Below, in pieces: positions 2,966-14,879 of a stretch of 35,162 nt of DNA. Positions within the stretch are counted from its first letter, which is position 1. Each line of letters begins with the position of its first letter. The stretch lies in the IMG/VR virus record IMGVR_UViG_3300010158_000188, positions 1 to 35,162 of that record; one strand, written 5' to 3'. The notes beneath the pieces were generated by a model. The model was not told the origin of the DNA and made no database searches. It saw only the letters and a program-made list of their open reading frames with translations. Origin of the DNA: a virus. The translations under genes were made by a program, and so were the position numbers.

Positions 2966-2993
2966 ATCATAAAGCAAGTTACGGTCAATACAA
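2966..2993 (-). promoter_or_regulatory. Promoter P6 (leftward), CGTAAC type
   Basis: On the minus strand: -35 TTGTAT (2993-2988), 16-base spacer containing ACCGTAACTTGC, -10 TATGAT (2971-2966). The spacer carries the same CGTAAC core found in five other promoters here. Only 6 bases separate the -10 from the ATG of the leftward gene at 2959, the geometry of a leaderless mRNA, which actinobacteria translate readily. Confidence 0.5.
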
Positions 2994-3000
2994 GAGGGCA

Positions 3001-3026
3001 GCAGAAACCCCTGCCGTAGCAGGGGT
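3001..3026 (-). terminator. Leftward terminator hairpin
   Basis: Perfect 8-bp stem ACCCCTGC/GCAGGGGT at 3007-3014 and 3019-3026 with a 4-base loop. On the minus strand it lies just after the stop of the 55-residue gene (3033) and is followed by TTTCTGC, a weak U-run. It should end the leftward two-gene transcript before the separately promoted gene at 2959. Confidence 0.7.
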
Positions 3027-3036
3027 AACTGGTTAC
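3025..3036. promoter_or_regulatory. Orphan GTAACTGGTTAC palindrome
   Basis: The 12-base perfect inverted repeat GTAACTGGTTAC (minus strand GTAACCAGTTAC) overlaps the stop codon of the leftward gene and touches the terminator. Read on the minus strand, CGTAACCAGTTACCC is identical to the spacer of promoter P3 at 10344-10358, but no -35 or -10 flanks it. This suggests a protein-binding site used away from a promoter. Confidence 0.45.
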
Positions 3037-3200
3037 GCGTTAAGGTTTTTGCTCAGCGCGTCTAAAAATTTGGCTTTAGGCTCAGTGGCCAACCAAGTTT
3101 CTTTTGCGGCCTCCATGCTGGTCGCAAAAATTGTGGCAAACTTTACATCTTTTGCAGCGGTTTCGCCTTCAAAATACCAGGCTAGTTCAAATACGTTCAT
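3033..3200 (-). CDS. Small hypothetical protein, leftward (55 residues)
   Basis: ATG at 3200 on the minus strand, TAA at 3035-3033. Reads MNVFELAWYFEGETAAKDVK and continues with a helix (SMEAAKETWLATEPKAKFLD). The ribosome site AGGAAGGGAATTAATA lies just before the start, inside the end of the upstream gene. It forms a two-gene leftward unit with 3203-3400, ended by the hairpin at 3007-3026. Function unknown. The size and the W/Y/F-rich N-terminus suit a small phage inhibitor or adaptor, but this is speculative. Confidence 0.7.
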   Translation of the reverse strand: MNVFELAWYFEGETAAKDVKFATIFATSMEAAKETWLATEPKAKFLDALSKNLNA

Positions 3201-3202
3201 TA

Positions 3203-3400
3203 TTAATTCCCTTCCTGTGCATTACATAAGTTGTCTAAAAACATGCCGTAAGCCTGTTTGCTTTCAAAACTAATGCGTATTTCATTACCCTCAGCGTCAC
3301 GTACTTCAAGGCGTATATCTCCAAAAAATTCTCTTGCTACGTAACTAACTGGCTTTAAGGTAACAATATGGGTGTCACCTGGTAACTGTGTAACGTTCAT
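3203..3400 (-). CDS. Small hypothetical protein, leftward (65 residues)
   Basis: ATG at 3400 on the minus strand, preceded by AGAAAGGC. The sequence suggests alternating beta strands (HIVTLKPVSYVAREFFGDIR, then IRISFESKQ) and a C-terminal helix (YGMFLDNLCNA). No family recognised. It is the first gene of the leftward operon driven by promoter P5; its ribosome site and spacing closely resemble those of the divergently transcribed gene at 3594. Confidence 0.75.
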   Translation of the reverse strand: MNVTQLPGDTHIVTLKPVSYVAREFFGDIRLEVRDAEGNEIRISFESKQAYGMFLDNLCNAQEGN

Positions 3401-3421
3401 TATTTTGCCTTTCTTGTTATG

Positions 3422-3435
3422 GGGCCTTGTTGCCC
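3422..3435 (-). ncRNA. 5' leader hairpin of the leftward transcript
   Basis: On the minus strand, GGGC-AACAAG-GCCC (4-bp stem, 6-base loop) lies about 11 bases after the P5 -10 box, i.e. near the predicted mRNA 5' end. The loop AACAAG nearly equals the AACAAC loop in the P2 leader at 7974-7979. Confidence 0.4.
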
Positions 3436-3445
3436 TAGTAAGTAA

Positions 3446-3473
3446 AGAATACCATAACTGGTTACGAAAGCAA
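3446..3473 (-). promoter_or_regulatory. Promoter P5 (leftward), CGTAACC type
   Basis: Minus strand: -35 TTGCTT (3473-3468), 16-base spacer with CGTAACCAGTTATGG, -10 TATTCT (3451-3446). The spacer from CGTAACC to TTATGG and the following TTTACTTA match promoter P4 at 11714-11741. It drives the two leftward genes 3400-3203 and 3200-3033. The palindrome-like GTAACCAGTTAT would place a DNA-binding protein between the two polymerase boxes. Confidence 0.65.
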
Positions 3474-3493
3474 GTCTATTGGGCAATTATTTT

Positions 3494-3509
3494 TGTGACG
3501 TTTATCACA
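3494..3509. promoter_or_regulatory. CRP-like palindrome between divergent promoters
   Basis: TGTGACGTTTATCACA is a perfect TGTGA-N6-TCACA inverted repeat, the textbook CRP/FNR-superfamily half-site arrangement. It lies between the -35 boxes of the divergent promoters P5 (ends 3473) and P1 (starts 3521). Its centre is about 54 bases from the expected P1 start and further from P5, so it could serve both. Whether a host CRP-like protein (GlxR/Crp type in actinobacteria) binds it is inference. Confidence 0.5.
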
Positions 3510-3520
3510 TGGTCAAATGC

Positions 3521-3549
3521 TTGTAAACCGTAACCTCTTGCCTTAGTCT
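3521..3549 (+). promoter_or_regulatory. Promoter P1 (rightward), CGTAACC type
   Basis: -35 TTGTAA (3521-3526), 17-base spacer ACCGTAACCTCTTGCCT, -10 TAGTCT (3544-3549). It shares TTGTAAACCGTAACC exactly with P2 at 7931. Expected start near 3556, leading into the rightward run beginning at 3594. Confidence 0.7.
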
Positions 3550-3559
3550 TGCTTTAACA

Positions 3560-3574
3560 GGTTGCGACGCAGCC
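3560..3574 (+). ncRNA. 5' leader hairpin after P1
   Basis: GGTTGC-GAC-GCAGCC folds as a 6-bp stem with one G-U pair and a 3-base loop, about 11 bases after the -10. It is followed by CCCAACAGAAAGG, so the stem sits between the predicted 5' end and the ribosome site. All five modules with an untranslated leader have a hairpin here. Confidence 0.4.
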
Positions 3575-3593
3575 CCAACAGAAAGGCAAGTAA

Positions 3594-3788
3594 ATGAGTT
3601 ACAAATTAGTTGACCAAAATGGCGCCAGGATTGCAGACCGCGTTAAGTTAATTTTTGTTTGCGATTTATGCGGTAATACTGCTGATTTTTACCATGGCAT
3701 GAGTACCTATTACAAAACCGTAAAAGGCGAAAAAACTCCTGAAAGTTATTGCTCTGAAATTTGCGTAAAAAAGGCGGTGGCCGCCTAA
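3594..3788 (+). CDS. Small zinc-ribbon-like protein
   Basis: 64 residues, ATG after AGAAAGG. A CDLC pair (residues 23-26) and a C-terminal CSEIC (52-56) separated by about 26 residues make a likely zinc site; a basic, tyrosine-rich middle (STYYKTVKGEK) lies between. No defined family. First gene behind promoter P1; its TAA overlaps the ATG of the next gene (TAATG). Confidence 0.8.
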   Translation: MSYKLVDQNGARIADRVKLIFVCDLCGNTADFYHGMSTYYKTVKGEKTPESYCSEICVKKAVAA

Positions 3789-4093
3789 TGACTACCAAAA
3801 TTAAAATTACCTGGAAAGCGTTTGGCAACGACCCAGAATCCAACCGTTACATAAGTGCGGTTGAGTTTGAAGCAGATTTTGCAATTACTGAGGACAACCT
3901 TGATATGTTCCTAGAAGTTGTTTACGCGCAGACCAACATACAGCGCGGCAATCTTTGGAACGTAATTGAGCCGCTATTGTCCCCGACCCGCACCCATACG
4001 TCTTTGAGTGTTGGAGATGAAATTGAAATTGACGATAAGGCATACAAGGTTGCAATGTGCGGCTTTGATTTAATAGAAAAGGCGGTGGCGTAA
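3788..4093 (+). CDS. Hypothetical protein in the recombination gene run
   Basis: 101 residues from the ATG in the TAATG junction at 3788; a longer in-frame reading from 3761 lies inside the previous gene and is not preferred. The protein is acidic and beta-rich. Its end (SVGDEIEIDDKAYKVAMCGF) reads like the small beta-barrel closing segment seen in many phage proteins of unknown function. Immediately upstream of and overlapping the annealing-protein candidate, so it may act with it. No function can be given. Confidence 0.75.
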   Translation: MTTKIKITWKAFGNDPESNRYISAVEFEADFAITEDNLDMFLEVVYAQTNIQRGNLWNVIEPLLSPTRTHTSLSVGDEIEIDDKAYKVAMCGFDLIEKAVA

Positions 4094-4677
4094 TGGCTTT
4101 TAACCTAGATAATTATGAACCAGTTGCAAACCGTTTAGCGCGAGCGCATGCGGAACACCCTGACATGCGAGTTATTACCAACATTGTTGACATACACCGT
4201 GACGACAATGGCGCTCCTAAGCAATACGTAGTCCAGGCGCAAATTTGGTACGGCGATATTTTGAAGGCTCAAGATTATGCCGAGGAGATTGTTGGCAACG
4301 GCATGGTGAACAAGTCCTCAGCCTTAGAAAATGCGTTAACGTCCGCAATTGGCCGCGCATTAGCCGACGCTAATTACCAAGGTACCAATTTGGAAAACCC
4401 TAGCAAGACGCGCCCTAGCCGTGAGGAAATGCAAAAGGCGCAACGTATCCAAGAAAGTGCCGCGCCGATTGTTGTACCAATTGCCCGCGTTTATGATGAA
4501 AAAGAAATAGCGGCGGCAAGTGATTGGATTGACTCAGTTGCAAACATTGTTGATATTGAGGAATTAAAAAAAGTTTGGAGTGACCAGGCCGCGTTGCTTG
4601 ACGTACCAGTCCAAAAAGATACTCTTAAGGCTGCAATTAACCGACAAGTTGCTAAGGGAAAGAAGGCCGTTAAATGA
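4093..4677 (+). CDS. Putative single-strand annealing protein (ERF/Rad52-like)
   Basis: 194 residues. The N-terminal half shows the arrangement used by phage annealing proteins: an opening YEPVANRLARAHAEHPDMRV, a strand pair with VQAQIWYGD, and then VNKSSALENALTSAIGRALA (about 78-97) with a following glycine. The S-A-L-E-N-A-x-T-S-A-I-G-R-A-L core is typical of ERF/Sak-type and related proteins that pair single strands during phage recombination. The C-terminal part is helical and lysine-rich (VAKGKKAVK). The Cas4-like nuclease at 5458 and RusA at 7531 supply logical partners. Family-level call by motif; not confirmed by alignment. Confidence 0.6.
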   Translation: MAFNLDNYEPVANRLARAHAEHPDMRVITNIVDIHRDDNGAPKQYVVQAQIWYGDILKAQDYAEEIVGNGMVNKSSALENALTSAIGRALADANYQGTNLENPSKTRPSREEMQKAQRIQESAAPIVVPIARVYDEKEIAAASDWIDSVANIVDIEELKKVWSDQAALLDVPVQKDTLKAAINRQVAKGKKAVK

Positions 4678-4787
4678 CACAAATTGAATATCTAAAAAAT
4701 AATTTAATTGACTCTTTTGAGCAGATTGGTTACACAAAAGAGCAAGCCTCAACAATGGTTAACGCAATATTTGGGAAGTTAACATGA
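4674..4787 (+). CDS. 37-residue hypothetical protein
   Basis: ATG overlaps the previous TGA (ATGA) and its own TGA overlaps the next ATG, a tight chain that supports a real gene. Sequence begins MTQIEYLKNNLIDSFEQIGY and continues as a helix (TKEQASTMVNAIFGKLT). It resembles a small helical bundle or UBA-like fold, but is too short to assign. Confidence 0.6.
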   Translation: MTQIEYLKNNLIDSFEQIGYTKEQASTMVNAIFGKLT

Positions 4788-4972
4788 AACCCTGGTATGA
4801 AACTCTTACACGACGCGGTTGGATTGTTTTATGGACAGCGGTTGTATTAGTAATTAGTTTATTTACTTATGCGACACGTGACGTTTGCTACGTAGGGCCG
4901 TCAGGAAATGCGTTAGGTTACGGCTCTTGCTCAAAAATGATTGAGGACAACTCCAATGCCAACCATAAATAA
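4784..4972 (+). CDS. Small membrane protein
   Basis: 62 residues. A basic N-terminus (KPWYETLTRRG) precedes one strong membrane span at about residues 13-30 (WIVLWTAVVLVISLFTYA), followed by an external-looking segment with two cysteines (DVCYVGP and GSCSKM). Single-span topology with positive inside gives N-in, C-out. Holin, spanin or superinfection-exclusion roles are all possible. Its position among recombination genes, away from the lysozyme-like gene at 9877, argues against a simple lysis cassette. Confidence 0.7.
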   Translation: MKPWYETLTRRGWIVLWTAVVLVISLFTYATRDVCYVGPSGNALGYGSCSKMIEDNSNANHK

Positions 4973-5120
4973 AACTGATTACTACACGATAATTACTGAG
5001 CAACATATTTGTTGCGACGCATTGCAATTCAAACATAAATGCAACAGGTGTTTAGAGTTTATGGGTTGCTACTTTTGCGGATTTAATTACAACGAACCGC
5101 ATGAGGGTTGTGCTGCATGA
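4956..5120 (+). CDS. 54-residue Cys/His-rich protein (zinc finger-like)
   Basis: ATG at 4956 overlaps the end of the membrane protein; TGA at 5118-5120 overlaps the next ATG. Contains ICCD, CNRC, a CYFC pair, two histidines (QFKHKC, EPHEGC) and a final cysteine, enough for one or two zinc sites. Function unknown; one of about a dozen tiny Cys-rich genes in the window. Confidence 0.7.
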   Translation: MPTINKTDYYTIITEQHICCDALQFKHKCNRCLEFMGCYFCGFNYNEPHEGCAA

Positions 5121-5461
5121 CAATTACTCCAGATGAAGTTGAGCAAAAACTTAAAAACTTATCTAAAGAAGTTGACGTAGCGCAACAAGATTTAGAGGCT
5201 GCTGAGTTGGAATATTACATATCTAAAGCCAGTTACGAAATTGCATTAGCAAAATCAAGATTAGTTTTAGGTAGCCAAGGCGTTAAAACTGTTGGAGAAC
5301 GAGAGGACAGGGCGCTGGTAGTAAATGAGGAATTGGCCCAACGTTTAGCAATTGCAGAAGCCAAGGTAAGAGCGGCTAGGGGTAATTCCCAGAGACTCCG
5401 TGAACAAGTTGATATAGCACGTTCAATTGGAACTAGCGTAAGGGCGGCAATGAACTTATGA
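5117..5461 (+). CDS. Coiled-coil hypothetical protein
   Basis: 114 residues from the ATGA start at 5117 (an upstream in-frame start at 5108 is inside the previous gene). Nearly the whole protein is predicted helix with heptad character: EQKLKNLSKEVDVAQQDLEA in the first part and AIAEAKVRAARGNSQRLREQ in the last. It has a short non-helical break around residues 53-63 (GSQGVKTVGER). This suggests an antiparallel hairpin of two long helices. It overlaps the Cas4-like nuclease gene by four bases and may be a partner or adaptor. Confidence 0.75.
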   Translation: MTITPDEVEQKLKNLSKEVDVAQQDLEAAELEYYISKASYEIALAKSRLVLGSQGVKTVGEREDRALVVNEELAQRLAIAEAKVRAARGNSQRLREQVDIARSIGTSVRAAMNL

Positions 5462-6114
5462 CCACAGATATAAATAAATTACTACGAAGCGCATTGGAGA
5501 CACATGACAACCAAAGACCACGTTCTCAACAAAAGGCTCTTGGCCCTTCAAGTATTGGAGATTGCTCAAGGCGAGTTTGGCACGCGTCTCACGATACGCC
5601 GCATACAAATCAAACAGACGGTCTCCCCGCAATCCTTGGAACCGCTATCCATGCCGCAATTGCAGAAGCCATTGCACTTGAGGACCCTTTTGGAGACGAC
5701 TTTTTAATTGAGGAAACCGTCCAAGGATTAGGGCGTACTGGCCACGTAGATTTATTTATCCGCAGCGCTGGTTTGGTGGTGGACTGGAAAACTACAAAAA
5801 AGAAATCATTACGTTACTTTCCCTCCGAGCAGCAAACGTTGCAGGTGCAAGTCTATGGCGTTTTAATGGAGGAAATGGGCCATAAAGTTAATGAAGTTTG
5901 CCTTGTTGCAATACCACGTGACGGCGAAATGGCAGACATTAAAGCCTGGCGTACTACCTATAACCGAGAAACTGGTTTACGTGGTTTGAACTGGTTGGAA
6001 AAAATTGAAAACATGGAGACAAAACCAGCGCCAGAAAAAAATGTTAAGTTCTGCTCCAAATACTGCAATTTTTATGACGCGTCAGGAGAAGTGGGTTGCC
6101 CGAGTTTGTTGTAG
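5458..6114 (+). CDS. Cas4/RecB-family PD-(D/E)XK nuclease with Fe-S cluster
   Basis: 218 residues. H65 (GTAIHAAIAEA), GHVDLF (D98) and VVDWKTTKKKS (D109, K111) give the PD-(D/E)XK active site; QVQVYG supplies the RecB-family QxxxY motif. One cysteine before the nuclease core (C36, GDCSRRVW) and three after it (C199, C203, C214) match the four-cysteine 4Fe-4S arrangement of Cas4 and AddB nucleases. It is probably a 5' or 3' DNA exonuclease producing single-stranded ends for the annealing protein at 4093. No CRISPR genes or arrays are nearby, so an adaptation role is not implied. Confidence 0.88.
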   Translation: MTTDINKLLRSALETHDNQRPRSQQKALGPSSIGDCSRRVWHASHDTPHTNQTDGLPAILGTAIHAAIAEAIALEDPFGDDFLIEETVQGLGRTGHVDLFIRSAGLVVDWKTTKKKSLRYFPSEQQTLQVQVYGVLMEEMGHKVNEVCLVAIPRDGEMADIKAWRTTYNRETGLRGLNWLEKIENMETKPAPEKNVKFCSKYCNFYDASGEVGCPSLL

Positions 6115-6449
6115 ATTACAAAAACGTTCATTGGGAAAAAGCAAATTGTCAAGACATTGGCACTAATGCGTTTTACGTAATGGACGACGAGCCAAAAGAC
6201 AGGCGATTAGTGAAAACTGAGTATGCGCGAGCCGTATGCGCGGTTTGCCCTATTCAAAAAAAGTGTCTGGAATATGCGTTTAAGCATGAACAGTACGGTT
6301 TATGGGGAGCAATGACTTCTCAAGAACGCGCTTATATCAAGACGGGCAAACTTGGTGGGCCAACAGTGCGCCAAGGATTAACAGAACTTAACTCTCTTGG
6401 CATATCTTTGAGAGAGGTTTACGCAACAGCGCGAAAGGCGGAAGCATGA
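6096..6449 (+). CDS. whiB: WhiB-family Fe-S transcription regulator
   Basis: 117 residues. The start is a TTG at 6096 with AGGAG seven bases upstream; no ATG lies before the first cysteine. Four cysteines C18, C48, C51, C57 (C-x29-C-x2-C-x5-C) would hold the 4Fe-4S cluster, and GLWGAMTSQER (68-78) is the family's G-[IV/L]-W-G turn. The following basic/HTH-like tail probably contacts DNA near the sigma-factor interface. WhiB proteins are essentially confined to Actinobacteria and their phages, which is the strongest host clue here. Phage WhiB proteins can reprogram host sigma-dependent promoters. It overlaps both neighbours. Confidence 0.93.
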   Translation: MPEFVVDYKNVHWEKANCQDIGTNAFYVMDDEPKDRRLVKTEYARAVCAVCPIQKKCLEYAFKHEQYGLWGAMTSQERAYIKTGKLGGPTVRQGLTELNSLGISLREVYATARKAEA

Positions 6450-7306
6450 GCATTAAGTTAATGACCTGGGTTTGGGAAAACTCACACTTTGAGGGAAAAA
6501 AACTATTGCTACACCTGGCTATGGCTGACCACGCTAACGACGACGGATATTTTTATGCAGGTCAAAAACGTTTAGCAGAAAGAGCCAGATGTACGCCTGA
6601 GCATATCCGCTTAGTTGTAAACGAAATGGTTCAAGAAGGTTATTTGATAATTGAGCGTAAAGGCAACACCTCAAAACACGCCACTCAATACAAATTGACG
6701 GTGCCAAAAACTCTTAAACCAAAACCCAACTATCACAAAGACCTTGACGCGGATTTTGAAAGGTGGGAAAAGTCTAAACAAAAGTTATCCACAGGGCAGG
6801 TTGACTCCCCAAATGATTTGGGTAGTGAAAACGTTGACTCCCCAAATCCAACGGGTCAACTCCCCAAATCCGCTTGGGGACAACCTATAAGAACCTTTAA
6901 TATAAAAGACAACGGCAACAAGTTGCCGACACCTGTAAAAGAAATATCTAAAATGCAAGAACTGGTTGCGCTTTATTTTGACAATTTAGAAAATGCTCCA
7001 GTTAAACCCACTGGGAAAATGATTGCTGGCCAGATTCAATTAGCGTTGCGGGATATTACGGTTGAGTACCTTGAAATCTTGATACCTATGGTGGCTCAAA
7101 GCGGCTTACCCTTGACGCCTAATACCTTGATGATTACGGCCAGGGAGCAAGCAAAACAGGTGGCAGACATAACACGTGCCAACAAGGATAAACAGGCCGC
7201 AAAAGAGCGTTCAGAGGCTTTAGACAGGGAGGCCAGGGAACGCCAGGCTAACGCGGTTCCTATGCCTGAGGCGATTAAGAATTTATTTAGAAACGTGGAC
7301 GCATAA
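6446..7306 (+). CDS. Phage replication initiator (winged-helix, lambda O-like organisation)
   Basis: 286 residues. The N-terminal 90 residues form a winged-helix domain: MTWVWENSHFEGKKLLLHLA, then QKRLAERARCTPEHIRLVVN and a wing ERKGNTSKHATQY. A hydrophilic linker (about 115-150) is encoded by the iteron cluster at 6785-6915. The C-terminal part is helical, with the long basic/acidic stretch RANKDKQAAKERSEALDREA. This order, with an origin inside the linker of its own initiator gene, matches lambda O and similar initiators. No helicase lies directly downstream in the window. ATGA overlap with whiB. Confidence 0.78.
   Translation: MSIKLMTWVWENSHFEGKKLLLHLAMADHANDDGYFYAGQKRLAERARCTPEHIRLVVNEMVQEGYLIIERKGNTSKHATQYKLTVPKTLKPKPNYHKDLDADFERWEKSKQKLSTGQVDSPNDLGSENVDSPNPTGQLPKSAWGQPIRTFNIKDNGNKLPTPVKEISKMQELVALYFDNLENAPVKPTGKMIAGQIQLALRDITVEYLEILIPMVAQSGLPLTPNTLMITAREQAKQVADITRANKDKQAAKERSEALDREARERQANAVPMPEAIKNLFRNVDA
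6785..6915. other. Putative replication origin: DnaA box, iterons, AT-rich segment
   Basis: Inside the initiator gene: a perfect DnaA-box consensus TTATCCACA at 6785-6793. Two exact iterons GTTGACTCCCCAAAT follow at 6800-6814 and 6833-6847, and a third (13 of 15 matching) at 6855-6869. An inverted partial copy lies at 6874-6885 (complement GGTTGTCCCCAA). Iteron spacings are 33 and 22 bases, whole helical turns. The first iteron overlaps a CCCAAAT-G-ATTTGGG dyad (6808-6822). An AT-rich stretch (6885-6907, ending TTTAATATAAAA) follows, as expected for a duplex-unwinding element. Confidence 0.7.
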
Positions 7307-7326
7307 CCTTACGTTATAGGTTATGC
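7301..7326. promoter_or_regulatory. Inverted repeat GCATAACC-N10-GGTTATGC
   Basis: Perfect 8-base arms at 7301-7308 and 7319-7326 with centre about 18 bases apart, spanning the stop codon of the initiator gene. It could be an operator for a dimeric protein or an RNA hairpin. There is no T-run after it, so it is a poor terminator. It lies just upstream of the small gene at 7347. Confidence 0.45.
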
Positions 7327-7346
7327 TTATGGTTACGGGGGTAGCA

Positions 7347-7538
7347 ATGGTTAAACAGATACCAGTGTGGAAATTACAAACAGGCGACGCCGTTTATTTA
7401 AAAGGCGCTCGCATGACAATTACTAACCTCAATGACGAAATTACAGGCGTCACAATGAGTTTAATTGACAATAGTGGGCGTGGTCATTGGGAAAATTTTG
7501 GCCATGACGATATTATCCCGCTTGACATAAGTGATTAA
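7347..7538 (+). CDS. Small beta-rich hypothetical protein
   Basis: 63 residues starting at ATG 7347, which follows GGGGG with 5 bases spacing; earlier in-frame ATGs at 7323 and 7329 fall within the inverted repeat and lack a ribosome site. The sequence (QTGDAVYLKGARMTITNLND ... TMSLIDNSGRGHWENF) looks like a small SH3-like or KOW-like beta barrel. No function known. It overlaps rusA by eight bases. Confidence 0.7.
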   Translation: MVKQIPVWKLQTGDAVYLKGARMTITNLNDEITGVTMSLIDNSGRGHWENFGHDDIIPLDISD

Positions 7539-7899
7539 ATTTGAGGTTGAGGGCCACCCAGTAACCCAGGGTTCAATGAAAGTTATCAACGGACGTGTTT
7601 TGCATAGTCGCGGTGAGGCTTTAATTCTCTGGCGAACAATGGTTGCGATAGCAGCGCGTAAAGCGGGTTGTTTTCCAGTACCAAATCCAGTTGAAATGAC
7701 AATTGACTTCCGTTTGCCACGCCCTAAAACAGTCCGCAGAAACTTGCCCTACGTTGCACCTGACCTTGATAAGTTAATTCGCGCGGTTCTTGACTCGCTT
7801 ACTGGAGTTGCATACGTGGACGACGGTCAAGTTGTCACAATAAATTCAACCAAAACTTACGGTGAGCCTGGAGTGACAATCACGCTTGATACTTTGTGA
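7531..7899 (+). CDS. rusA: RusA-family Holliday junction resolvase
   Basis: 122 residues from a GTG start. Family marks in order: GHPVTQGSMK near the N-terminus, W34, DFRLPRPKTVRR (59-70), the catalytic PDLDKLIRAVLDSLTG (77-92, D78 and D80), DDGQVV (97-102) and K108. RusA is a dimeric nuclease that cuts four-way junctions during replication and recombination, and so can clear branched DNA before packaging. It is the last gene of this run. Its TGA stop lies inside the conserved GTGACC element that precedes promoter P2. Confidence 0.92.
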   Translation: MIKFEVEGHPVTQGSMKVINGRVLHSRGEALILWRTMVAIAARKAGCFPVPNPVEMTIDFRLPRPKTVRRNLPYVAPDLDKLIRAVLDSLTGVAYVDDGQVVTINSTKTYGEPGVTITLDTL

Positions 7900-7917
7900 C
7901 CAACACCACAAAAATAA
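7896..7917 (+). repeat. Module-head element, copy 1
   Basis: Begins GTGACCAACACCACAAAAAT and ends AA. It is identical over 22 bases to copy 2 at 10301-10322 and similar to copy 3 at 11679-11700. In all three the element starts exactly 35 bases before the -35 box. The first GTGA includes the stop codon of rusA. The A-run may act as an UP element. Confidence 0.7.
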
Positions 7918-7930
7918 TTGTGTCAGGTAC

Positions 7931-7959
7931 TTGTAAACCGTAACCACTTACCTTAATCT
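7931..7959 (+). promoter_or_regulatory. Promoter P2, CGTAACC type
   Basis: -35 TTGTAA (7931-7936), 17-base spacer ACCGTAACCACTTACCT, -10 TAATCT (7954-7959). The spacer holds GTAACCACTTAC, one mismatch from the palindrome GTAACCAGTTAC. It drives the run beginning at 8006. Confidence 0.7.
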
Positions 7960-7969
7960 TCTCTTAACA

Positions 7970-7983
7970 GGCCAACAACGGCC
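7970..7983 (+). ncRNA. 5' leader hairpin after P2
   Basis: GGCC-AACAAC-GGCC (4-bp stem, 6-base loop) lies 11 bases after the -10. It is followed by CCAAACAGAGAGAAG with the ribosome site. The loop is nearly the same as in the leftward P5 leader (AACAAG). Confidence 0.4.
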
Positions 7984-8005
7984 CCAAACAGAGAGAAGTA
8001 AAAAA

Positions 8006-8353
8006 ATGAATACAAGCGTTGAAGTTAAAGCAGAACAAGGTTTAGTAGTTATTGAAATGTTAGAAGGCCATGGAGGAAATAAGTACCAGGTACACGCAGA
8101 AGGTTGTTTAGATATTGCCCGCTTTATTGCCCGCGGTTTTGAAATTTGCTACAAGGGAAACAGTTACGTTGAATTTGCAATGGAAGCCTTTAGCGATTTA
8201 GCAGGGGATTACCTTACAGACGCCGATAATATTAAAGTCTGGAACAAGGCAGTAATTAACGAAGCAGATAGTTACAGCCCAATTAAGGCATGTTGCAAAA
8301 AGCAGATAGCAGCCGAAGTTGCTCCACTCAAGAACGTGGAGGTAAACATTTAA
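8006..8353 (+). CDS. Hypothetical protein
   Basis: 115 residues, ATG after GAGAGAAG. Beta-strand-rich start (VKAEQGLVVIEMLEGHGGNK), an aromatic middle (GFEICYKGNSYVEFAMEAF) and a C-terminal region with two adjacent cysteines (KACCKK). Not recognised. First gene in the P2 module; its TAA overlaps the ATG of the next gene. Confidence 0.75.
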   Translation: MNTSVEVKAEQGLVVIEMLEGHGGNKYQVHAEGCLDIARFIARGFEICYKGNSYVEFAMEAFSDLAGDYLTDADNIKVWNKAVINEADSYSPIKACCKKQIAAEVAPLKNVEVNI

Positions 8354-8496
8354 TGAAATGCTCAAAATGTTTAAATGACTTGCACCCACTAGCAGCGTTT
8401 CCAAACCGACTATGCGTTGATTGTTACGCGCAAACTCCAGAAGCAAACCGACCAATTACCGCCCGTGAACTAGCGCAGATATGGGGTGGAAAGTAA
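8353..8496 (+). CDS. 47-residue zinc-finger-like protein
   Basis: The ATG in the TAATG junction at 8353 is chosen; a longer in-frame reading from 8290 lies inside the previous gene. Two CxxC pairs (MKCSKC and LCVDC) about 15 residues apart should bind one zinc, followed by a helical tail (ANRPITARELAQIWGGK). Function unknown. Confidence 0.75.
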   Translation: MKCSKCLNDLHPLAAFPNRLCVDCYAQTPEANRPITARELAQIWGGK

Positions 8497-8648
8497 TGGC
8501 ATGCGAGGACTACCCATGTTGCGGACATGAAATGGGTGATTGTGAAGGCAAACTTTACGGCACTGATGAAAGCATTAAAAAACGGGTCTGGAATAACTAC
8601 GTGCGCCAAGGATATGACTATGGCCGTGAAGGTGAGGACGACAGATGA
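8496..8648 (+). CDS. 50-residue Cys/His-rich protein
   Basis: TAATG start at 8496 and ATGA end at 8645-8648 tie it to both neighbours. The N-terminus (MACEDYPCCGHEMGDCEG) has four cysteines and one histidine. The rest (SIKKRVWNNYVRQGYDYGRE) is charged and helical. The CCGH..GDC pattern recalls short phage proteins described only as hypothetical. Confidence 0.7.
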   Translation: MACEDYPCCGHEMGDCEGKLYGTDESIKKRVWNNYVRQGYDYGREGEDDR

Positions 8649-8809
8649 GTAACAAAAATTGGTACAACGTATTGATTATCAGTGAAAAAACTATAAAAGT
8701 TTACGCTGAAAGCGCTGAGGAAGCAAAAGAAGTTGCAGATAATAAAATGCAACCATTATGGAGCGCCGAAACCGCGCACCGTACAGACGGGACAATTGAG
8801 TATGACTAG
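8645..8809 (+). CDS. 54-residue hypothetical protein
   Basis: ATGA-coupled start. Alternating strand-helix-strand pattern: WYNVLIISEKTIKVYAESAE followed by EEAKEVADNK. This is the small ferredoxin-like or DUF-type fold seen in many phage accessory proteins (compare the fold-like pattern at 3033-3200). Overlaps the next gene by 8 bases. Function unknown. Confidence 0.65.
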   Translation: MSNKNWYNVLIISEKTIKVYAESAEEAKEVADNKMQPLWSAETAHRTDGTIEYD

Positions 8810-8999
8810 CAATCTTAACCGTTGCGAAGGTTGCCAAGCATGGACATGGGGTTTTGAACGTTGGTGCAATGACTGTTTTGAGAAAGCCAACTGGCCAGAA
8901 TTTGAAAAACTACTTGAGTCTCCCAACCCAATCTTTGTGAAATCCAACCTCAAGCGGTACCGTATTGGAGGAAAAGAAAGGGCGCGACGAAATGATTAA
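8802..8999 (+). CDS. 65-residue zinc-finger-like protein
   Basis: ATG at 8802 overlapping the previous stop; a longer reading from 8733 has no ribosome site of its own. Two CxxC pairs (CEGC and CNDC), with W and F around them (WTWGFERWC), then an arginine/lysine-rich tail (RYRIGGKERARRND) suitable for nucleic-acid contact. Function unknown. Confidence 0.72.
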   Translation: MTSNLNRCEGCQAWTWGFERWCNDCFEKANWPEFEKLLESPNPIFVKSNLKRYRIGGKERARRND

Positions 9000-9183
9000 A
9001 CGACGCTGTTACCACTGTGGAACAGTTGGCGGGTTCACAAACAAACTTTACGAGTATCCCGTACAGAATATGGACTCAATTTTTGCATGCGATAGATGTG
9101 AGGAACGCTCTGGTTGGAACGCCGTGTTCATTAAAGATAATGGAGACGTAAACATGAGAAACATAGGTGGCGATTATGAGTAA
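8992..9183 (+). CDS. 63-residue zinc-finger-like protein
   Basis: ATG at 8992 overlaps the previous gene by eight bases; AAAGGG lies about 10 bases upstream. CYHC near the N-terminus and CDRC about 30 residues later form a two-pair zinc site. Sequence between: TVGGFTNKLYEYPVQNMDSI. Unknown function, part of the serial Cys-rich block 8353-9183. Confidence 0.72.
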   Translation: MIKRRCYHCGTVGGFTNKLYEYPVQNMDSIFACDRCEERSGWNAVFIKDNGDVNMRNIGGDYE

Positions 9184-9397
9184 ACAAGTACAAACGGAAG
9201 GTGAAGCACGTTTAGCGTTGCACTCTTTTTTGAAACATGCGTCTAAAAATTTTAAAAAGGCTATTGAACTGGACGACGACAGAGTAATTGCGGTAGCGCT
9301 TACTGATTTCCTAAGCAAAATAAAACCATATTACGAAATATCCTTGTTGCTTGCTGGTTACGAAGCGCCAAAAGAAAATGAGGAAAGCAATGGTTGA
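9176..9397 (+). CDS. Helical hypothetical protein
   Basis: 73 residues from ATG 9176 with AGGTGG six bases before it; a GTG at 9167 is the alternative. Almost wholly helical (EGEARLALHSFLKHASKNFK, then DDRVIAVALTDFLSKIKPYY) and ends with an acidic tail (APKENEESNG). No family recognised. Overlaps the following winged-helix gene by eight bases. Confidence 0.7.
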   Translation: MSKQVQTEGEARLALHSFLKHASKNFKKAIELDDDRVIAVALTDFLSKIKPYYEISLLLAGYEAPKENEESNG

Positions 9398-9698
9398 GCA
9401 AATGACTTTTGACTCCGTACCACTTTTCCGCAATGGCGCTCCAGATACCAGCGTTAAAGCCGCGCTGGAATTACCCGTGTCTCAACTTGAACAAATGGTT
9501 TATGAAGCCATACGCGCGTCTGGACACAAAGGCATAACCGCTGATGAATTGCTGGCGTTATTCCCTGGATTTAGTTACTCAAGCATTACTGCTCGTCCTG
9601 CAAGCCTTAAGCGAAATGGGCTAGTAGTTGACACTGGAGAACGTAGAGCGGGCCGTTCAGGGCGCTTACAAGCCGTATTAAAGGCAACAGAATTATGA
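9390..9698 (+). CDS. Winged-helix DNA-binding protein
   Basis: 102 residues from ATG 9390 (AGGAAAG just upstream). After an N-terminal extension, residues 32-95 form a winged helix: QLEQMVYEAIRASGHKGITA, then DELLALFPGFSYSSITARPA as the HTH, and LVVDTGERRAGRSGR as the wing. The same architecture occurs in many phage and Streptomyces proteins annotated simply as HTH proteins. A repressor or activator of local promoters is possible, including of the CGTAACC family, but the sequence does not show it. The stop overlaps the next ATG. Confidence 0.78.
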   Translation: MVEQMTFDSVPLFRNGAPDTSVKAALELPVSQLEQMVYEAIRASGHKGITADELLALFPGFSYSSITARPASLKRNGLVVDTGERRAGRSGRLQAVLKATEL

Positions 9699-9880
9699 GC
9701 GTTGACAGCGTGATTATTTACTGCACCTGCGGACAATTGCGACACACTTCCAACGATTGTGTAGTTTGCGCTATCCTAGGACGAGAACTGCCCCCTACCA
9801 AGGAGGTCACTATGACCACAAACTTGAAACTGGTAACAGCCGAAATTGTCGGAAAGGAAGCGGCGAAAGTAGTCCGCTGA
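9695..9880 (+). CDS. Cys-rich protein preceding the endolysin
   Basis: 61 residues, ATGA-coupled. Residues 10-25 hold CTC..........C..C, a likely zinc site. Halfway through comes a very strong in-frame internal ribosome site and ATG at 9812, which would give a separate 22-residue peptide (MTTNLKLVTAEIVGKEAAKV plus VR). The TGA at 9878-9880 overlaps the CTG from which the endolysin frame can start. This suggests the last part serves translational coupling or a frameshift rather than being part of the Cys-rich domain. Confidence 0.6.
   Translation: MSVDSVIIYCTCGQLRHTSNDCVVCAILGRELPPTKEVTMTTNLKLVTAEIVGKEAAKVVR
9801..9814 (+). promoter_or_regulatory. Strong internal ribosome binding site
   Basis: AGGAGG (9801-9806) followed by TCACT and ATG at 9812. 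It is among the best Shine-Dalgarno matches in the window, yet the ATG opens only a 22-codon frame ending at 9880, in the frame next to the endolysin. It should therefore be read as the translation entry for the endolysin. Confidence 0.65.
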
Positions 9881-10299
9881 TACGTTTAGCCAAAATCCTT
9901 TTAGTAGCCGCATTGTCGGTAGGGTTTGGTTTTGCAGCACCCGCGGAAGCAAAAGCACCGCGCAATGAATTTGTCTCCAGAACTCCTGAGGCGGCTCAAC
10001 AATATGCTCAAAAATATATTAAGACGCATAGTTGGGGCAGCGCTCAATGGAAATGTTTGAAGTCATTATGGACGGCCGAAAGCAACTGGCGTCCCGACGC
10101 GTTTAATAAAACACCTGTTTACCAAATCCGTGACGGCAAGCGCGTAAAACTCCACGCTGGCGGTATTCCGCAAAAACTCAATTTGAGTCCAAAAGAATCC
10201 GTAGAAACCCAGGTTCATGAAGGGGTCGAATATGTTAAAAGTCGTTACGGGAATCCTTGCTCAGCCTGGAGTTTCCACCTTCGGCGCGGCTGGTATTAG
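9877..10299 (+). CDS. Secreted lysozyme-like transglycosylase / endolysin candidate
   Basis: About 140 residues if started at the CTG at 9877. The frame is open back to about 9757, but that part does not look protein-like. A signal peptide is clear: LIRLAKILLVAALSVGFGFA, then PAEAKA with a probable cut after AEA. The mature part is lysozyme-like: KCLKSLWTAESNWRPDAFN with catalytic Glu, GGIPQ, then ETQVHEGVEYVKSRYGNPCS and AWSFH..RGWY, as in actinobacterial transglycosylases with aggregation-factor-like ends. It would cut peptidoglycan glycan strands after Sec export. No ATG exists in frame; see the finding on translation start. Confidence 0.75.
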   Translation: MIRLAKILLVAALSVGFGFAAPAEAKAPRNEFVSRTPEAAQQYAQKYIKTHSWGSAQWKCLKSLWTAESNWRPDAFNKTPVYQIRDGKRVKLHAGGIPQKLNLSPKESVETQVHEGVEYVKSRYGNPCSAWSFHLRRGWY

Positions 10300-10300
10300 T

Positions 10301-10322
10301 GTGACCAACACCACAAAAATAA
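10301..10322 (+). repeat. Module-head element, copy 2
   Basis: Same 22 bases as copy 1 at 7896-7917 (starts GTGACCAACACCAC), beginning two bases after the endolysin TAG and again 35 bases before the -35 box of P3. The following GTCAGG-GAC is also partly shared with copy 1. Confidence 0.7.
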
Positions 10323-10335
10323 ATACGTCAGGGAC

Positions 10336-10364
10336 TTGCATACCGTAACCAGTTACCCTAATCT
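10336..10364 (+). promoter_or_regulatory. Promoter P3, CGTAACC type
   Basis: -35 TTGCAT (10336-10341), 17-base spacer ACCGTAACCAGTTACCC, -10 TAATCT (10359-10364). The spacer holds the full palindrome GTAACCAGTTAC. Drives the run from 10410. Confidence 0.72.
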
Positions 10365-10368
10365 TTAC

Positions 10369-10392
10369 TTATTAGAGCAAACGCACTAATAA
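10369..10392 (+). ncRNA. 5' leader hairpin after P3
   Basis: TTATTAG (10369-10375), 10-base loop AGCAAACGCA, CTAATAA (10386-10392): perfect 7-bp stem starting at the predicted transcript start. The P4 leader has TTATTGG/CCAATAA with loop AGCAACCGCC, so one A-U pair is replaced by G-C with pairing kept. Confidence 0.6.
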
Positions 10393-10409
10393 AACGAAAG
10401 GTTAGAAAA

Positions 10410-10562
10410 ATGAAAAAATACACACCCGCAGAATACGAAGCCCGTATTGCTCAAATGAAAATAAATATTGGTTACACAAAAACAAAGCAGATTAAGGTTA
10501 CAGGCTTTAATTTTCAGACTGGCGAATACACAGTGCATTTTGAGACAGTAGAGGCTCTCTAA
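10410..10562 (+). CDS. 50-residue hypothetical protein
   Basis: ATG after CGAAAGGTTAGAAAA. Helix followed by beta strands (MKKYTPAEYEARIAQMKINI, then TKQIKVTGFNFQTGEYTVHF). First gene of the P3 module. TAATG junction with the next gene. No family recognised. Confidence 0.7.
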   Translation: MKKYTPAEYEARIAQMKINIGYTKTKQIKVTGFNFQTGEYTVHFETVEAL

Positions 10563-10969
10563 TGACTATACGTGAAGTTGAGTTGAGCAAGACAATGCAG
10601 GTTGGCGATATTTTGTTAGCCAGTTGGGGATACGAAGCAAATATCTCAGACTTTTACCGTGTTATTAAGCGAACAGCAACTACCGTGACGGTAGAAAAAT
10701 TAAAGTCCCAGGTTGTTGGACTTGGTGACTTTTATGACGCCCGCCGAATAATGCCAACAGATGAGGTTGCCACTGAGCGTAACTACCATATTGACGGCGA
10801 TATTTGGGAACCAATTGTTTTGAAGCGCAAAATTAAGACCAACGTTATACAAAGTTGGAACGGCTTGCTTGGCGATTATGAAATTACACGTGAATATATC
10901 CAACCAAATGACTACACCTACGCACACGTTTGGGACGGAACTGAGCAAATTGACTACAACCACCATTAA
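10562..10969 (+). CDS. Hypothetical beta-rich protein
   Basis: 135 residues. The opening (MQVGDILLASWGYEANISDF, YRVIKRTATTVTVEKL) is typical of a small beta-barrel found in phage proteins of unknown role; the C-terminal half is rich in Y, W, D and H (HVWDGTEQIDYNHH). No catalytic motif visible. Translation coupled to the previous gene through TAATG. Confidence 0.72.
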   Translation: MTIREVELSKTMQVGDILLASWGYEANISDFYRVIKRTATTVTVEKLKSQVVGLGDFYDARRIMPTDEVATERNYHIDGDIWEPIVLKRKIKTNVIQSWNGLLGDYEITREYIQPNDYTYAHVWDGTEQIDYNHH

Positions 10970-10982
10970 GAAAGGCGCACCA

Positions 10983-11186
10983 ATGACAAACTTGATTACG
11001 TATAAAAGAAAAAACAAGATGTTTGCCTGGAAAACTATTGAACTGTTTGCCAGTGACTTACCGCACCCATACACAATAAAAGCCACGGGAGACAAAGAGT
11101 CTTTTTATCTGGCCGTTTATGACTCAATTGACGAGGCCCTAGAAGCAATGCAACTACTACAAGATGAGGTAAAAAATGGACTGTAA
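10983..11186 (+). CDS. 67-residue hypothetical protein
   Basis: ATG at 10983 after AGAAAGGCGCACCA; the longer frame from 10869 lies inside the preceding gene. Strand-rich, ending in a helix with DSIDEALEAMQLLQDE. It resembles the small alpha/beta adaptor proteins at 8645 and 3033 (a tail helix with EA..A). Overlaps the next gene by 11 bases. Confidence 0.7.
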   Translation: MTNLITYKRKNKMFAWKTIELFASDLPHPYTIKATGDKESFYLAVYDSIDEALEAMQLLQDEVKNGL

Positions 11187-11376
11187 TGACGAGACTTGTA
11201 CTGAGTGCAATAACAGTGCGTTCAGGTTACAACTTGAGCAACAAATCCGAGACAAAATTGCTAATGAAGTTGAATACAAAATGCTTCCTATATGCGTTTG
11301 CGAGCGCTGCAACAACATGTTTGAAGGACGCCTAGTCCAAAAAGCCATTGACATTATTAAAGGAGATAAAGCATGA
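11176..11376 (+). CDS. 66-residue zinc-finger-like protein
   Basis: Two cysteine pairs near the N-terminus (MDCNDETCTEC) and one CVCERC motif later, separated by a coiled helix (FRLQLEQQIRDKIANEVEYK). Up to two zinc ions could be bound. ATG at 11176; ATGA coupling to the following gene. Unknown function. Confidence 0.72.
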   Translation: MDCNDETCTECNNSAFRLQLEQQIRDKIANEVEYKMLPICVCERCNNMFEGRLVQKAIDIIKGDKA

Positions 11377-11507
11377 TTTACACAAAACAATTCAAAACCG
11401 TATTTTTAGTTATTGGAAAAGGCCGCCGTTTTGGACTTGGCCTCGTCATAGACAAATACGGAGCCAACCTTGATTTTGGCCCATTTTGGTTTGCAATTGA
11501 ATTCTAA
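11373..11507 (+). CDS. 44-residue hypothetical protein
   Basis: ATG after AAAGGAGAT with good spacing and overlapping the previous TGA. Sequence MIYTKQFKTVFLVIGKGRRF continues with an aromatic-rich strand (NLDFGPFWFAIEF). It looks like a small beta sheet rather than a membrane span. Unknown function. Confidence 0.68.
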   Translation: MIYTKQFKTVFLVIGKGRRFGLGLVIDKYGANLDFGPFWFAIEF

Positions 11508-11682
11508 AGAAGTTGCGGCCTGCAATTCTAAACGACGGTATCCAGATAACGCCAGCGCCGAGACCATGCGAAGCATGTTCATAATGCTCAACAAAAAACG
11601 ACGCACCAAATATGAAGCAAGAGCCTATTTATGCCCTGTCTGTGACGGCTGGCACTTGACTTCTCAGGTCTTAAAAGTGTGA
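11497..11682 (+). CDS. Zinc-ribbon-like phage protein
   Basis: The core is KEVAACNSKRRYPDNASAET plus AYLCPVCDGWHLTSQ. This is the common small phage pattern C..K.RY...A..............AY.C..C..WHL, with three cysteines and a histidine as probable zinc ligands. The start is uncertain: no ATG precedes the first cysteine, and TTG at 11497 (61 residues) or 11470 (70 residues) both overlap the upstream gene. Its TGA lies inside the copy-3 module-head element. Confidence 0.68.
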   Translation: MNSKEVAACNSKRRYPDNASAETMRSMFIMLNKKRRTKYEARAYLCPVCDGWHLTSQVLKV

Positions 11683-11700
11683 GCAACACCACAAAAAAAG
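11679..11700 (+). repeat. Module-head element, copy 3
   Basis: Starts GTGAGCAACACCACAAAAAA: one base differs from copies 1 and 2 over the first 19. It contains the stop codon of the upstream gene and starts 35 bases before the P4 -35 box. Confidence 0.68.
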
Positions 11701-11713
11701 ACCCTTCATACGG

Positions 11714-11741
11714 TTGACACCGTAACCAGTTATGGTAATCT
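11714..11741 (+). promoter_or_regulatory. Promoter P4, CGTAACC type
   Basis: -35 TTGACA (consensus, 11714-11719), 16-base spacer CCGTAACCAGTTATGG, -10 TAATCT (11736-11741). The best -35 of the family. Drives the run from 11786. Confidence 0.75.
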
Positions 11742-11745
11742 TTAC

Positions 11746-11769
11746 TTATTGGAGCAACCGCCCCAATAA
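11746..11769 (+). ncRNA. 5' leader hairpin after P4
   Basis: TTATTGG (11746-11752), 10-base loop AGCAACCGCC, CCAATAA (11763-11769). Same length, offset and loop pattern as the P3 leader, with a compensated pair in the stem. The ribosome site AAGGAGAAGG follows directly. Confidence 0.6.
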
Positions 11770-12422: not shown

Positions 12423-12425
12423 GGC

Positions 12426-12437
12426 GTAAGCGGTTAC
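12426..12437. promoter_or_regulatory. GTAAGCGGTTAC operator-like site
   Basis: In the 38-base gap after the zinc-finger gene. Its complement GTAACCGCTTAC differs from the GTAACCAGTTAC palindrome at two central positions. No -35/-10 pair fits around it, so it is an orphan site like 3025-3036. A short CCCC-AGACA-GGGG hairpin (12443-12455) follows and overlaps the ribosome site of the next gene. Confidence 0.35.
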
Positions 12438-12460
12438 AGTATCCCCAGACAGGGGGCGAC

Positions 12461-13718: not shown

Positions 13719-14262
13719 AGAGTATCCAGGGAACCCGCGTAAAGGCGATATTGACGCTATTGCTGAATCGTTGAAAGTTAATGGGCAATACAAGCCGATA
13801 GTTGTCCAGGAAAGCACTGGGTACGTTTTAGTCGGGAACCATACGCTCAAGGCAGCCCGTAAATTAGGTTGGGACTTTATTGAAACCGTGGAAGTTGATG
13901 TTGACGATGAAGGCGCTAAAAGAATTGTTTTAGCCGACAACCGTACAAGTGACGCCTCAACTTATGACTATGACCTTTTGGCTGAAATGTTAAAGTCGCT
14001 ACCCTCAATTAAAGGTACAGGCTATGACGCTGAGTCATTAAGTGCGTTACTTAACGAAGTCTCTGGAATTTTGCCTGAAATGCAAGAAAACGGCGTAACG
14101 GCAGGTTTAGGTACCCCGATTATTCATTACGACATTATTTTTGATACTGAGGAACAGCAAGTCGTTTGGCATAACTACTTGAAATGGCTAAGATTGCAAG
14201 AACCCGAAGGGCAAACAAATGCAGCGCGCATGGCATTGCACTTGAGAAAGGTTATGTCATGA
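13684..14262 (+). CDS. ParB/sulfiredoxin-like domain protein
   Basis: 192 residues. Typical ParB N-terminal domain: YPGNPRKGDIDAIAESLKVN, GQYKPIVVQ, YVLVGNHTLKAARKLGW (the GxHxLxAA loop, with N-H replacing E/G-HR) and VLADNRTSD. It lacks the central HTH of a chromosomal ParB, as in phage ParB-like proteins that bind CTP or work in DNA modification or as methyltransferase N-terminal modules. The C-terminal part (TPIIHYDIIFDTEEQQVVWH) resembles a segment often following such domains in phages. First gene of the modification-like cluster. Confidence 0.82.
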   Translation: METVTALVETLKEYPGNPRKGDIDAIAESLKVNGQYKPIVVQESTGYVLVGNHTLKAARKLGWDFIETVEVDVDDEGAKRIVLADNRTSDASTYDYDLLAEMLKSLPSIKGTGYDAESLSALLNEVSGILPEMQENGVTAGLGTPIIHYDIIFDTEEQQVVWHNYLKWLRLQEPEGQTNAARMALHLRKVMS

Positions 14263-14879
14263 GTACCTTGAAAAAATATCAAGATGAGTTAAAACTCAAA
14301 GGCGGCGTGTTGATTAAAGGGTTTGTTGAACCTAACGTTGCTCTTGAGTGGGCTGAGCGGGCCAAGGCTGGCATTCAATCAAGAATTGACCGCCCTGTAA
14401 TTGAAGCAAAAGAATTAGATGAAGGTGGAGAGCGTCACGGCAAAATTGCAGACGCGTTTGAAGCGGAAAAAGTATTGCCTGAAATTTTTGGTTTGTATCA
14501 AGGTGCCAGGTTATTTTTGTCAGAGTTAATTGAACGCCCTGTAATTTGTTCACCTTATCCACGAAGCACCGTAACGCTCAAAGTTTATGACCGCCCTGGA
14601 GACCAGCAAGGTTGGCACCGTGACACTAATCCATTGACAGCGTTACTTATTGCCACCGAGACCCTAGGCAATTACGGTACTGAAATTGAAGCGCGTGACG
14701 GCTCAGTATTTAATTTAGAAAACCAGCCAGGTGATTTATGGGTTATGTATGGCCGCGAATTACGCCATAGAGTGCCGTCTATTCCAGAAGGTAAGTGGCG
14801 AGTAACTATTCCGTTGAACTATTACCACCCAGACGATGTTTGGCGCCCTCAAGGTACCGATAATCTAATTTACGGATAA
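14259..14879 (+). CDS. 2OG-Fe(II)-dependent oxygenase
   Basis: 206 residues from the ATGA start at 14259; a longer frame from 14184 lies inside the previous gene. Fe ligands are H120 and D122 in QQGWHRDTNPL and H170 in ELRHRV; R181 in KWRVTIPLNYY binds 2-oxoglutarate. The double-stranded beta-helix strands around residues 105-185 fit the family. Substrate is unknown: hydroxylation of a nucleic-acid base, protein or small molecule are options. The neighbours (ParB-like and PAPS-reductase-like proteins) suggest a DNA or nucleotide substrate. The AlkB-type nucleotide recognition lid is not obvious. Confidence 0.83.
   Translation: MSTLKKYQDELKLKGGVLIKGFVEPNVALEWAERAKAGIQSRIDRPVIEAKELDEGGERHGKIADAFEAEKVLPEIFGLYQGARLFLSELIERPVICSPYPRSTVTLKVYDRPGDQQGWHRDTNPLTALLIATETLGNYGTEIEARDGSVFNLENQPGDLWVMYGRELRHRVPSIPEGKWRVTIPLNYYHPDDVWRPQGTDNLIYG

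Follow-up and report, generated by a model that had tools for sequence, protein, structure and literature searches.

A family of composite promoters with upstream CRP/GlxR-type sites in an actinophage genome

The locus and its promoters

The window analyzed here is the whole of a 35,162-base IMG/VR virus record (IMGVR_UViG_3300010158_000188; 45% G+C) with an actinophage gene set encoding an exonuclease, GP88, WhiB, a replication initiator, RusA, SSB, a ParB-like protein, PAPS reductase, terminase and portal. Within it lie five promoters on both strands, P1 to P5, whose co-regulation is well supported and each of which has a palindrome of the type bound by CRP and GlxR just upstream. An earlier note on this DNA had listed six promoters with CGTAAC in the spacer and assigned them to one phage regulator acting on an inverted repeat at that place; it saw a real co-regulated family and named the weaker half of its logic. 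We consider P1 to P5 to be composite promoters of this freshwater actinobacterial phage, probably CRP-activated in a class I-like manner, that have spread as cassettes. The predicted features are as follows.

3494 to 3509, no strand: P1/P5 CRP/GlxR-like palindrome TGTGACGTTTATCACA, common to the divergent P1 and P5; arms invariant in the related phages L004 and L005
3521 to 3549, plus strand: P1 promoter, with -35 TTGTAA (3521-3526), CGTAACCTCTTGC (3529-3541) and -10 TAGTCT (3544-3549)
3560 to 3574, plus strand: P1 leader hairpin GGTTGC-gac-GCAGCC, at the predicted mRNA 5' end
3446 to 3473, minus strand: P5 promoter, with -35 TTGCTT (3473-3468), CGTAACCAGTTAT (3466-3454) and -10 TATTCT (3451-3446)
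3422 to 3435, minus strand: P5 leader hairpin GGGC-aacaag-GCCC
7895 to 7910, no strand: P2 CRP-like palindrome TGTGACCAACACCACA, with the rusA stop codon inside its left half
7931 to 7959, plus strand: P2 promoter, with -35 TTGTAA (7931-7936), CGTAACCACTTAC (7939-7951) and -10 TAATCT (7954-7959)
7970 to 7983, plus strand: P2 leader hairpin GGCC-aacaac-GGCC; whole leader z = -3.7
10300 to 10315, no strand: P3 CRP-like palindrome TGTGACCAACACCACA
10336 to 10364, plus strand: P3 promoter, with -35 TTGCAT (10336-10341), the exact dyad CGTAACCAGTTAC (10344-10356) and -10 TAATCT (10359-10364)
10369 to 10392, plus strand: P3 leader hairpin TTATTAG...CTAATAA; z = -3.0
11678 to 11693, no strand: P4 CRP-like palindrome TGTGAGCAACACCACA
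11714 to 11741, plus strand: P4 promoter, with -35 TTGACA (11714-11719), CGTAACCAGTTAT (11721-11733) and -10 TAATCT (11736-11741)
11746 to 11769, plus strand: P4 leader hairpin TTATTGG...CCAATAA, with a compensatory change relative to the P3 hairpin

When the six listed sites were aligned on CGTAAC, five of them, P1 to P5, stood where they had been placed, with -35-like boxes and CGTAACC in spacers of 16 or 17 bp. They form one family in which CGTAACC-NN-TTRY precedes a TAATCT-type -10 box, with 9 bp between CGTAAC and that box. A scoring matrix for the 21-bp motif (CGTAACC to -10), built from ten promoters of the window, L004 and L005 and thus including the five scored sites, gave 28.5 to 34.4 bits for P1 to P5 and 8.3 bits for the next-best position in the window. 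The elements of P1 to P5 and their spacing can be read from the sequence with high confidence. P1 to P5 were not singled out by a generic sigma70 scan, and the family is therefore not findable by box matching alone. The spacer word CGTAACY occurs 27 times in the window, against 8.8 expected; 20 of these matches fall outside the six listed sites and one more is the copy at 3031. Because most matches lie outside promoters, the word alone is not promoter-specific and is weak evidence. With up to three mismatches, GTAACCAGTTAC has 77 matches in the window (33 ± 6 expected).

The sixth listed site, P6 (2993, minus strand), does not have the motif and was rejected as a member of the family: its CGTAAC is 6 bp from the -10 box instead of 9, it is outside the top 16 matrix matches, and it has no CRP site. 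Its -35 box is not kept in L004 and L005, whereas CGTAACTTrCTTTAT is kept. A second exact copy of GTAACCAGTTAC (3025-3036, minus strand) is probably no site, as it overlaps a stop codon and reads GTAACCGCTTTG in L004 and L005. Nor was a degenerate copy at 12425 accepted (CGTAAGCGGTTAC, 9 bp before TATCCC), which scores 6.2 bits. At 12425-12443 the sequence reads CGTAAGCGGTTACAG-TATCCC; it resembles a degenerate sixth copy in having the 9-bp spacing, lacks a CRP site, and has an inverted repeat, CCCC-AGACA-GGGG, after it. Near P6, a GC-rich inverted repeat, CCCCTGC-TAC-GGCAGGGG-TTTCT (2995-3023), lies 3' of the leftward genes and reads as a likely terminator of the P5 unit.

CRP/GlxR-type sites upstream of the promoters

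That P1 to P5 answer to common control on both strands is in line with the earlier note, which had missed the strongest regulator signature, the upstream CRP/GlxR-type site. TGTGA-N6-YCACA occurs four times in the window, against 0.13 expected, a number reached by none of 100 shuffles. All four sites lie just upstream of a family member, with one serving the divergent P1 and P5, and there are no others in the window. One is a perfect TGTGA-N6-TCACA and three have one mismatch at the CCACA end. P1 to P5 had been chosen without that feature, and finding it at every one of them therefore counts as independent, even though P2 to P4 have some sequence in common through copying. Random placement of the four sites in those zones has a probability of about 2e-9 under full independence, although the sites are only partly independent.

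Measured from the CRP centre to where the -35 box begins, the linker takes just two values among ten promoters of the window, L004 and L005. It is 28 nt in six (P2, P3, P4 and P5, plus P5 of L004 and L005); the other four, P1 of each of the three phages and P2 of L005, have 19 nt. With the start assumed 7 nt after the -10 box, the CRP centres fall near -54 or at -62 to -64. In M. tuberculosis, CRP sites cluster from -60 to -40 relative to starts, those at -62.5 (a divergent pair) and -58.5 are among the strongest, and upstream sites tend toward activation (PMC4117774). Because of this last tendency, we propose that the phage promoters are activated. CRP is in our judgment the likely binder of the TGTGA palindromes, and with a little less assurance we take its action to be activation rather than repression.

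The palindromes could instead have another function: they might terminate transcription of the upstream genes, for instance, or bind a different factor. The sites of P2 to P4 do overlap or follow stop codons, the palindrome can form a hairpin, and in most relatives of the presumptive host the single host site sits between convergent genes. However, the stem is short and no T run follows it on either strand, the genes flanking the P1/P5 site diverge and need no terminator there, and the spacing from palindrome to -35 box is exact. We regard such another function as very improbable.

Conservation and distribution among phages

Named phages are distant from the window; the best match of its exonuclease is that of Actinomycetia phage DSL-LC01 (47%), and at the DNA level none of 50,697 phage records comes near to the 2-14 kb region. 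An IMG/VR scan with the exonuclease yielded L003 (100% in the exonuclease), L004 (96%) and L005 (95%). No relatives were recovered with the replication protein as the scan query, and PAPS reductase recovered distant phages without the promoter cassette.

The motif is kept at all five orthologous sites in L004 and L005. In the P1/P5 region of the three phages, no position varies among the ten of the CRP arms or in either CGTAACC block (24/24 invariant, versus 79/124 elsewhere; p = 6.5e-5), a result matched by none of 147 circular shifts; the right half of the P5 dyad is invariant along with its CGTAACC. The -35 boxes of P1 and P5 keep only 2/6 and 4/6 positions, which would suit promoters that depend on an activator. 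The L005 orthologue of P2 keeps both half-sites around another N6 core, has TCACA for CCACA, is missing 9 bp between the CRP site and the -35 box, and carries a different right half in the spacer; one of the two P2 upstream regions has probably been replaced by a P3-like one. From the pattern at P1/P5 and P2, selection therefore appears to act on the arms, the spacer element and the linker length.

The same comparison bears on mere descent, in which a mobile promoter-plus-hairpin cassette would have been copied around the genome under no common regulator. P2 and P3 have TGTGACCAACACCACAAAAATAA and GTCAGG in common, the leaders of P3 and P4 are alike, and the right half of P2 differs in L005, all of which fit copying. 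Copying alone is insufficient, however, given that in orthologues it is the linkers, N6 cores and -35 boxes that vary, with the CRP arms and CGTAACC preserved, and that linker length takes two values only. We find descent without common regulation improbable, and favor probably CRP-activated promoters that spread as cassettes.

In a scan of 2.9 million viral contigs for a CRP site together with CGTAACC, real cassettes were found only in L003, L004 and L005, and a scan of IMG/VR for the 21-bp promoter pattern again led only to these three. Other IMG/VR matches to the pattern, inspected singly, had no CRP site or cassette context and were mostly coding-like. The pattern is also absent from 99 genomes related to the presumptive host. 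The enrichment anticipated by the earlier note in related genomes thus holds for the close relatives, at the orthologous sites, and neither elsewhere in IMG/VR nor in these 99 genomes. Five longer records of phages without the motif contain zero CRP sites over their whole length, and a sixth such phage has a single one in apparent coding sequence.

Two observations were made alongside. The phage L035 has its own three-copy promoter family (12718, 17384 and 18269), in which TAAGGCAGAATT is followed by leader hairpins; repeated promoter cassettes are therefore not unique to the window. In the window itself, the protein encoded at 14184-14879, which adjoins PAPS reductase, matches Pfam HalD (halogenase D) at 28.1 bits against a cut-off of 26 bits.

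The spacer element

The inverted repeat described earlier in the spacer is exact at P3 (five of five dyad pairs) and matches at four of five pairs at P2, P4 and P5, and at three of five at P1. Its left half, CGTAAC(C), is invariant, and its right half drifts (AGTTAC, AGTTAT, ACTTAC, TCTTGC). A single phage-encoded dimeric repressor, bound to GTAAC-CA-GTTAC between the -35 and -10 boxes and holding the accessory and leftward units off, would account for the exact or near dyads at P2 to P5 and for the constant 9 bp to the -10 box. As would suit a phage-specific operator, the motif is confined to the window phage clade and absent from the 99 host-related genomes, and GTAACNNGTTAC is not above control in host genomes. 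Against such a repressor stand the variable right half, the three matched pairs of P1 and its orthologues, and the evidence from wider relatives below.

The promoters that follow rusA in these relatives differ in sequence, and CGTAAY occurs in 7 of 18 independent clusters (1.0-1.4 expected); control words (reversed, complemented, CGTAAR) occur in 0-1 of the same 18. It sits just 3' of the -35 box, for example TTGACACCGTAATC in L080, and by eye no CGTAAY-bearing relative has GTTAC where the second half of the dyad would fall. What is invariant in the spacer is asymmetric and probably older than the L004/L005 clade. Because CGTAAY occurs there without the dyad, a promoter or sigma-linked contact therefore fits better than a dedicated dimeric operator.

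Of the proteins named earlier as candidate regulators, the helix-turn-helix (HTH) protein at 347 is present in 78 of 79 relatives, WhiB (at 6096) in 34 and the HTH protein at 13314 in 7, and all three occur in relatives without the motif, which again counts against the repressor. None of the relatives' loci contains the winged-helix protein at 9390; most of their contigs, those of the motif-bearing relatives included, stop short of its position. A PDB sequence search with the HTH protein at 347 returned nothing useful. We consider the repressor unlikely.

Alternatively, CGTAAY may belong to the core promoters of this actinophage group and involve no operator; either the polymerase itself or a sigma-bound phage factor, for example the WhiB-like protein, would read it. 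WhiB proteins work bound to region 4 of sigma A, and the 7 of 18 clusters favor this reading. On the other side, 11 of the 18 clusters have no CGTAAY, TTGACNNCGTAAY is not enriched in host genomes, and we know of no WhiB-DNA contact at the CGTAAY position. We view a pure core element as possible, though not probable. The scans with GTAACNNGTTAC and TTGACNNCGTAAY and the 99 host-related genomes do not support an origin of the motif from host promoters.

Leader hairpins

Downstream of each promoter of the family, about 10 nt past the -10 box or earlier, the predicted mRNA has a short 5'-terminal hairpin. Taken singly, some leaders are no more stable than shuffled sequence (z ranges from -0.3 to -3.7), and the case for the hairpins therefore rests on comparison. 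Among 26 leaders, a set partly picked for having a stem, four or five standard pair types were found at each of four outer pairs. In the less selected set of 18 post-rusA leaders, hairpins are longer than in shuffles (combined p ~3e-9). The leader hairpins therefore support the promoter calls. An outer helix (e.g. CCCT...AGGG) was discounted, as it probably lies partly upstream of the transcription start.

Many leaders have UAACA 5' of the stem and CCAA 3' of it. About 20 freshwater actinophages (L016-L081, e.g. L026:11299, L019:12376 and L080:17541) carry a post-rusA leader of the form UAACA-(covarying hairpin)-CCAA. The leaders have no match in Rfam, and those of this form are possibly an undescribed RNA leader family. 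The comparison suggests protection or insulation of the mRNA as a role for the hairpins.

The presumptive host and its CRP

The window had one match in genome collections, a 1.5-Mb metagenome-assembled genome (MAG) of an Actinomycetota bacterium (G001), which holds a syntenic phage contig (L123). This MAG has one Crp. Its alignment to M. tuberculosis CRP spans the entire protein (E = 1e-77) and takes in the SRETV recognition helix. Its gene is next to an endonuclease III-like gene (nth), as in M. tuberculosis. A cNMP (cyclic nucleotide)-binding protein is present in all 25 host relatives searched, and the phage proteins have no cNMP-binding (CRP) domain. The 16 genomes closest to the presumptive host (G001-G016) have one CRP-type protein each, with two cNMP-binding matches in one genome, and no PF00211. 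Whether cAMP is the signal is uncertain; M. tuberculosis CRP is described as merely mildly enhanced by it (PMC4005916). Many of the genomes G001-G025 have a single exact TGTGA-N6-TCACA (e.g. L143:1501 and L149:1501) between the ends of genes that by eye appear to be parB and a convergent amidase-like gene.

A model of promoter action

From these sequence data we infer CRP binding, activation in place of repression, roles for CGTAACC and the hairpin, and the host itself. Each promoter would present, in order, a site for host CRP/GlxR, a weak -35 box, CGTAACC at the downstream edge of this box, a TAATCT-type -10 box, a 5'-terminal hairpin and a ribosome site. Host CRP bound upstream would recruit RNA polymerase in a class I manner (centre at about -54 or -62 to -64) and so drive the rightward and leftward early/accessory phage units together. 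A second factor, or the polymerase with its sigma, may make contact with CGTAACC, and the hairpin may protect or insulate the mRNA.

Several points weigh against CRP activation. The four sites are not independent, with P1 and P5 using one and P2 to P4 having the core CAACA in common, and their likeness is partly copying. Three of the four end in CCACA, not TCACA. The 19- and 28-nt spacings are 9 bp apart, which falls short of one complete turn of the helix. Class III adenylate cyclase (PF00211) is found in 0/16 of the closest host genomes, and the host assignment comes from one MAG contig and WhiB.

A more elaborate and rather doubtful version would give each promoter two inputs, upstream from host CRP and at CGTAAY from a sigma-bound factor of the phage (WhiB-like or the conserved HTH protein), combined with a covarying 5'-terminal hairpin. 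CGTAAY plus hairpin would then be a general, undescribed cassette of freshwater actinobacterial phages, to which the window clade has added CRP control.

The phages that infect the abundant Actinobacteria of fresh water are difficult to work with, and we did not find the timing of their gene expression described. If CRP does act on P1 to P5, their wiring would tie infection to the metabolic state of the host, and the exact 19/28-nt spacing and the conserved leader hairpins offer ready reporter tests.

Comparison with known systems

Repeated cassettes are known from other phages. The SAS/ESAS elements of cluster K mycobacteriophages are likewise repeated non-coding cassettes with inverted repeats upstream of a gene subset in an actinophage, and the SAS is a 13-bp GGGATAGGAGCCC beside the start codon (PMC3203893). 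Unlike P1 to P5, the SAS is not described as part of a CRP-site promoter, and we saw no sequence likeness; GGGATAGGAGCCC is not found beside the start codons after P1 to P5. In T4-like phages, promoter-stem-loop (PeSL) cassettes combine an early promoter with a stem-loop terminator (Arbiol 2010; Comeau 2014, via PMC4503421). As far as that secondary account goes, they resemble the window family in coupling a promoter to a stem-loop and in being copied around the genome, and differ in that the window hairpin comes after the promoter, at the start of the mRNA, and lacks a T run. To our knowledge, no CRP site or spacer motif is known for PeSLs.

Control of phage promoters by host CRP has a precedent in coliphage T1, where cAMP-CRP controls the pir, dam and recE promoters and represses them (PMC6737242). 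The proposed family is like T1 in that host CRP would read host metabolism into several phage promoters. Unlike in T1, the geometry here suggests activation, and phage and host are unrelated; if this is true, P1 to P5 would be an activating counterpart to the repression in T1.

Compared with CRP class I promoters and the regulons of M. tuberculosis CRP and C. glutamicum GlxR, the phage family differs in that several copies stand within 8 kb of phage DNA, in its two fixed spacings 9 bp apart, in the conserved CGTAACC of its spacer, and in that its CRP binding is a prediction. It is like them in having TGTGA-N6-TCACA upstream of a poor -35 box, in the sharing of a site by divergent promoters, and in the presence of an orthologous regulator in the presumptive host.

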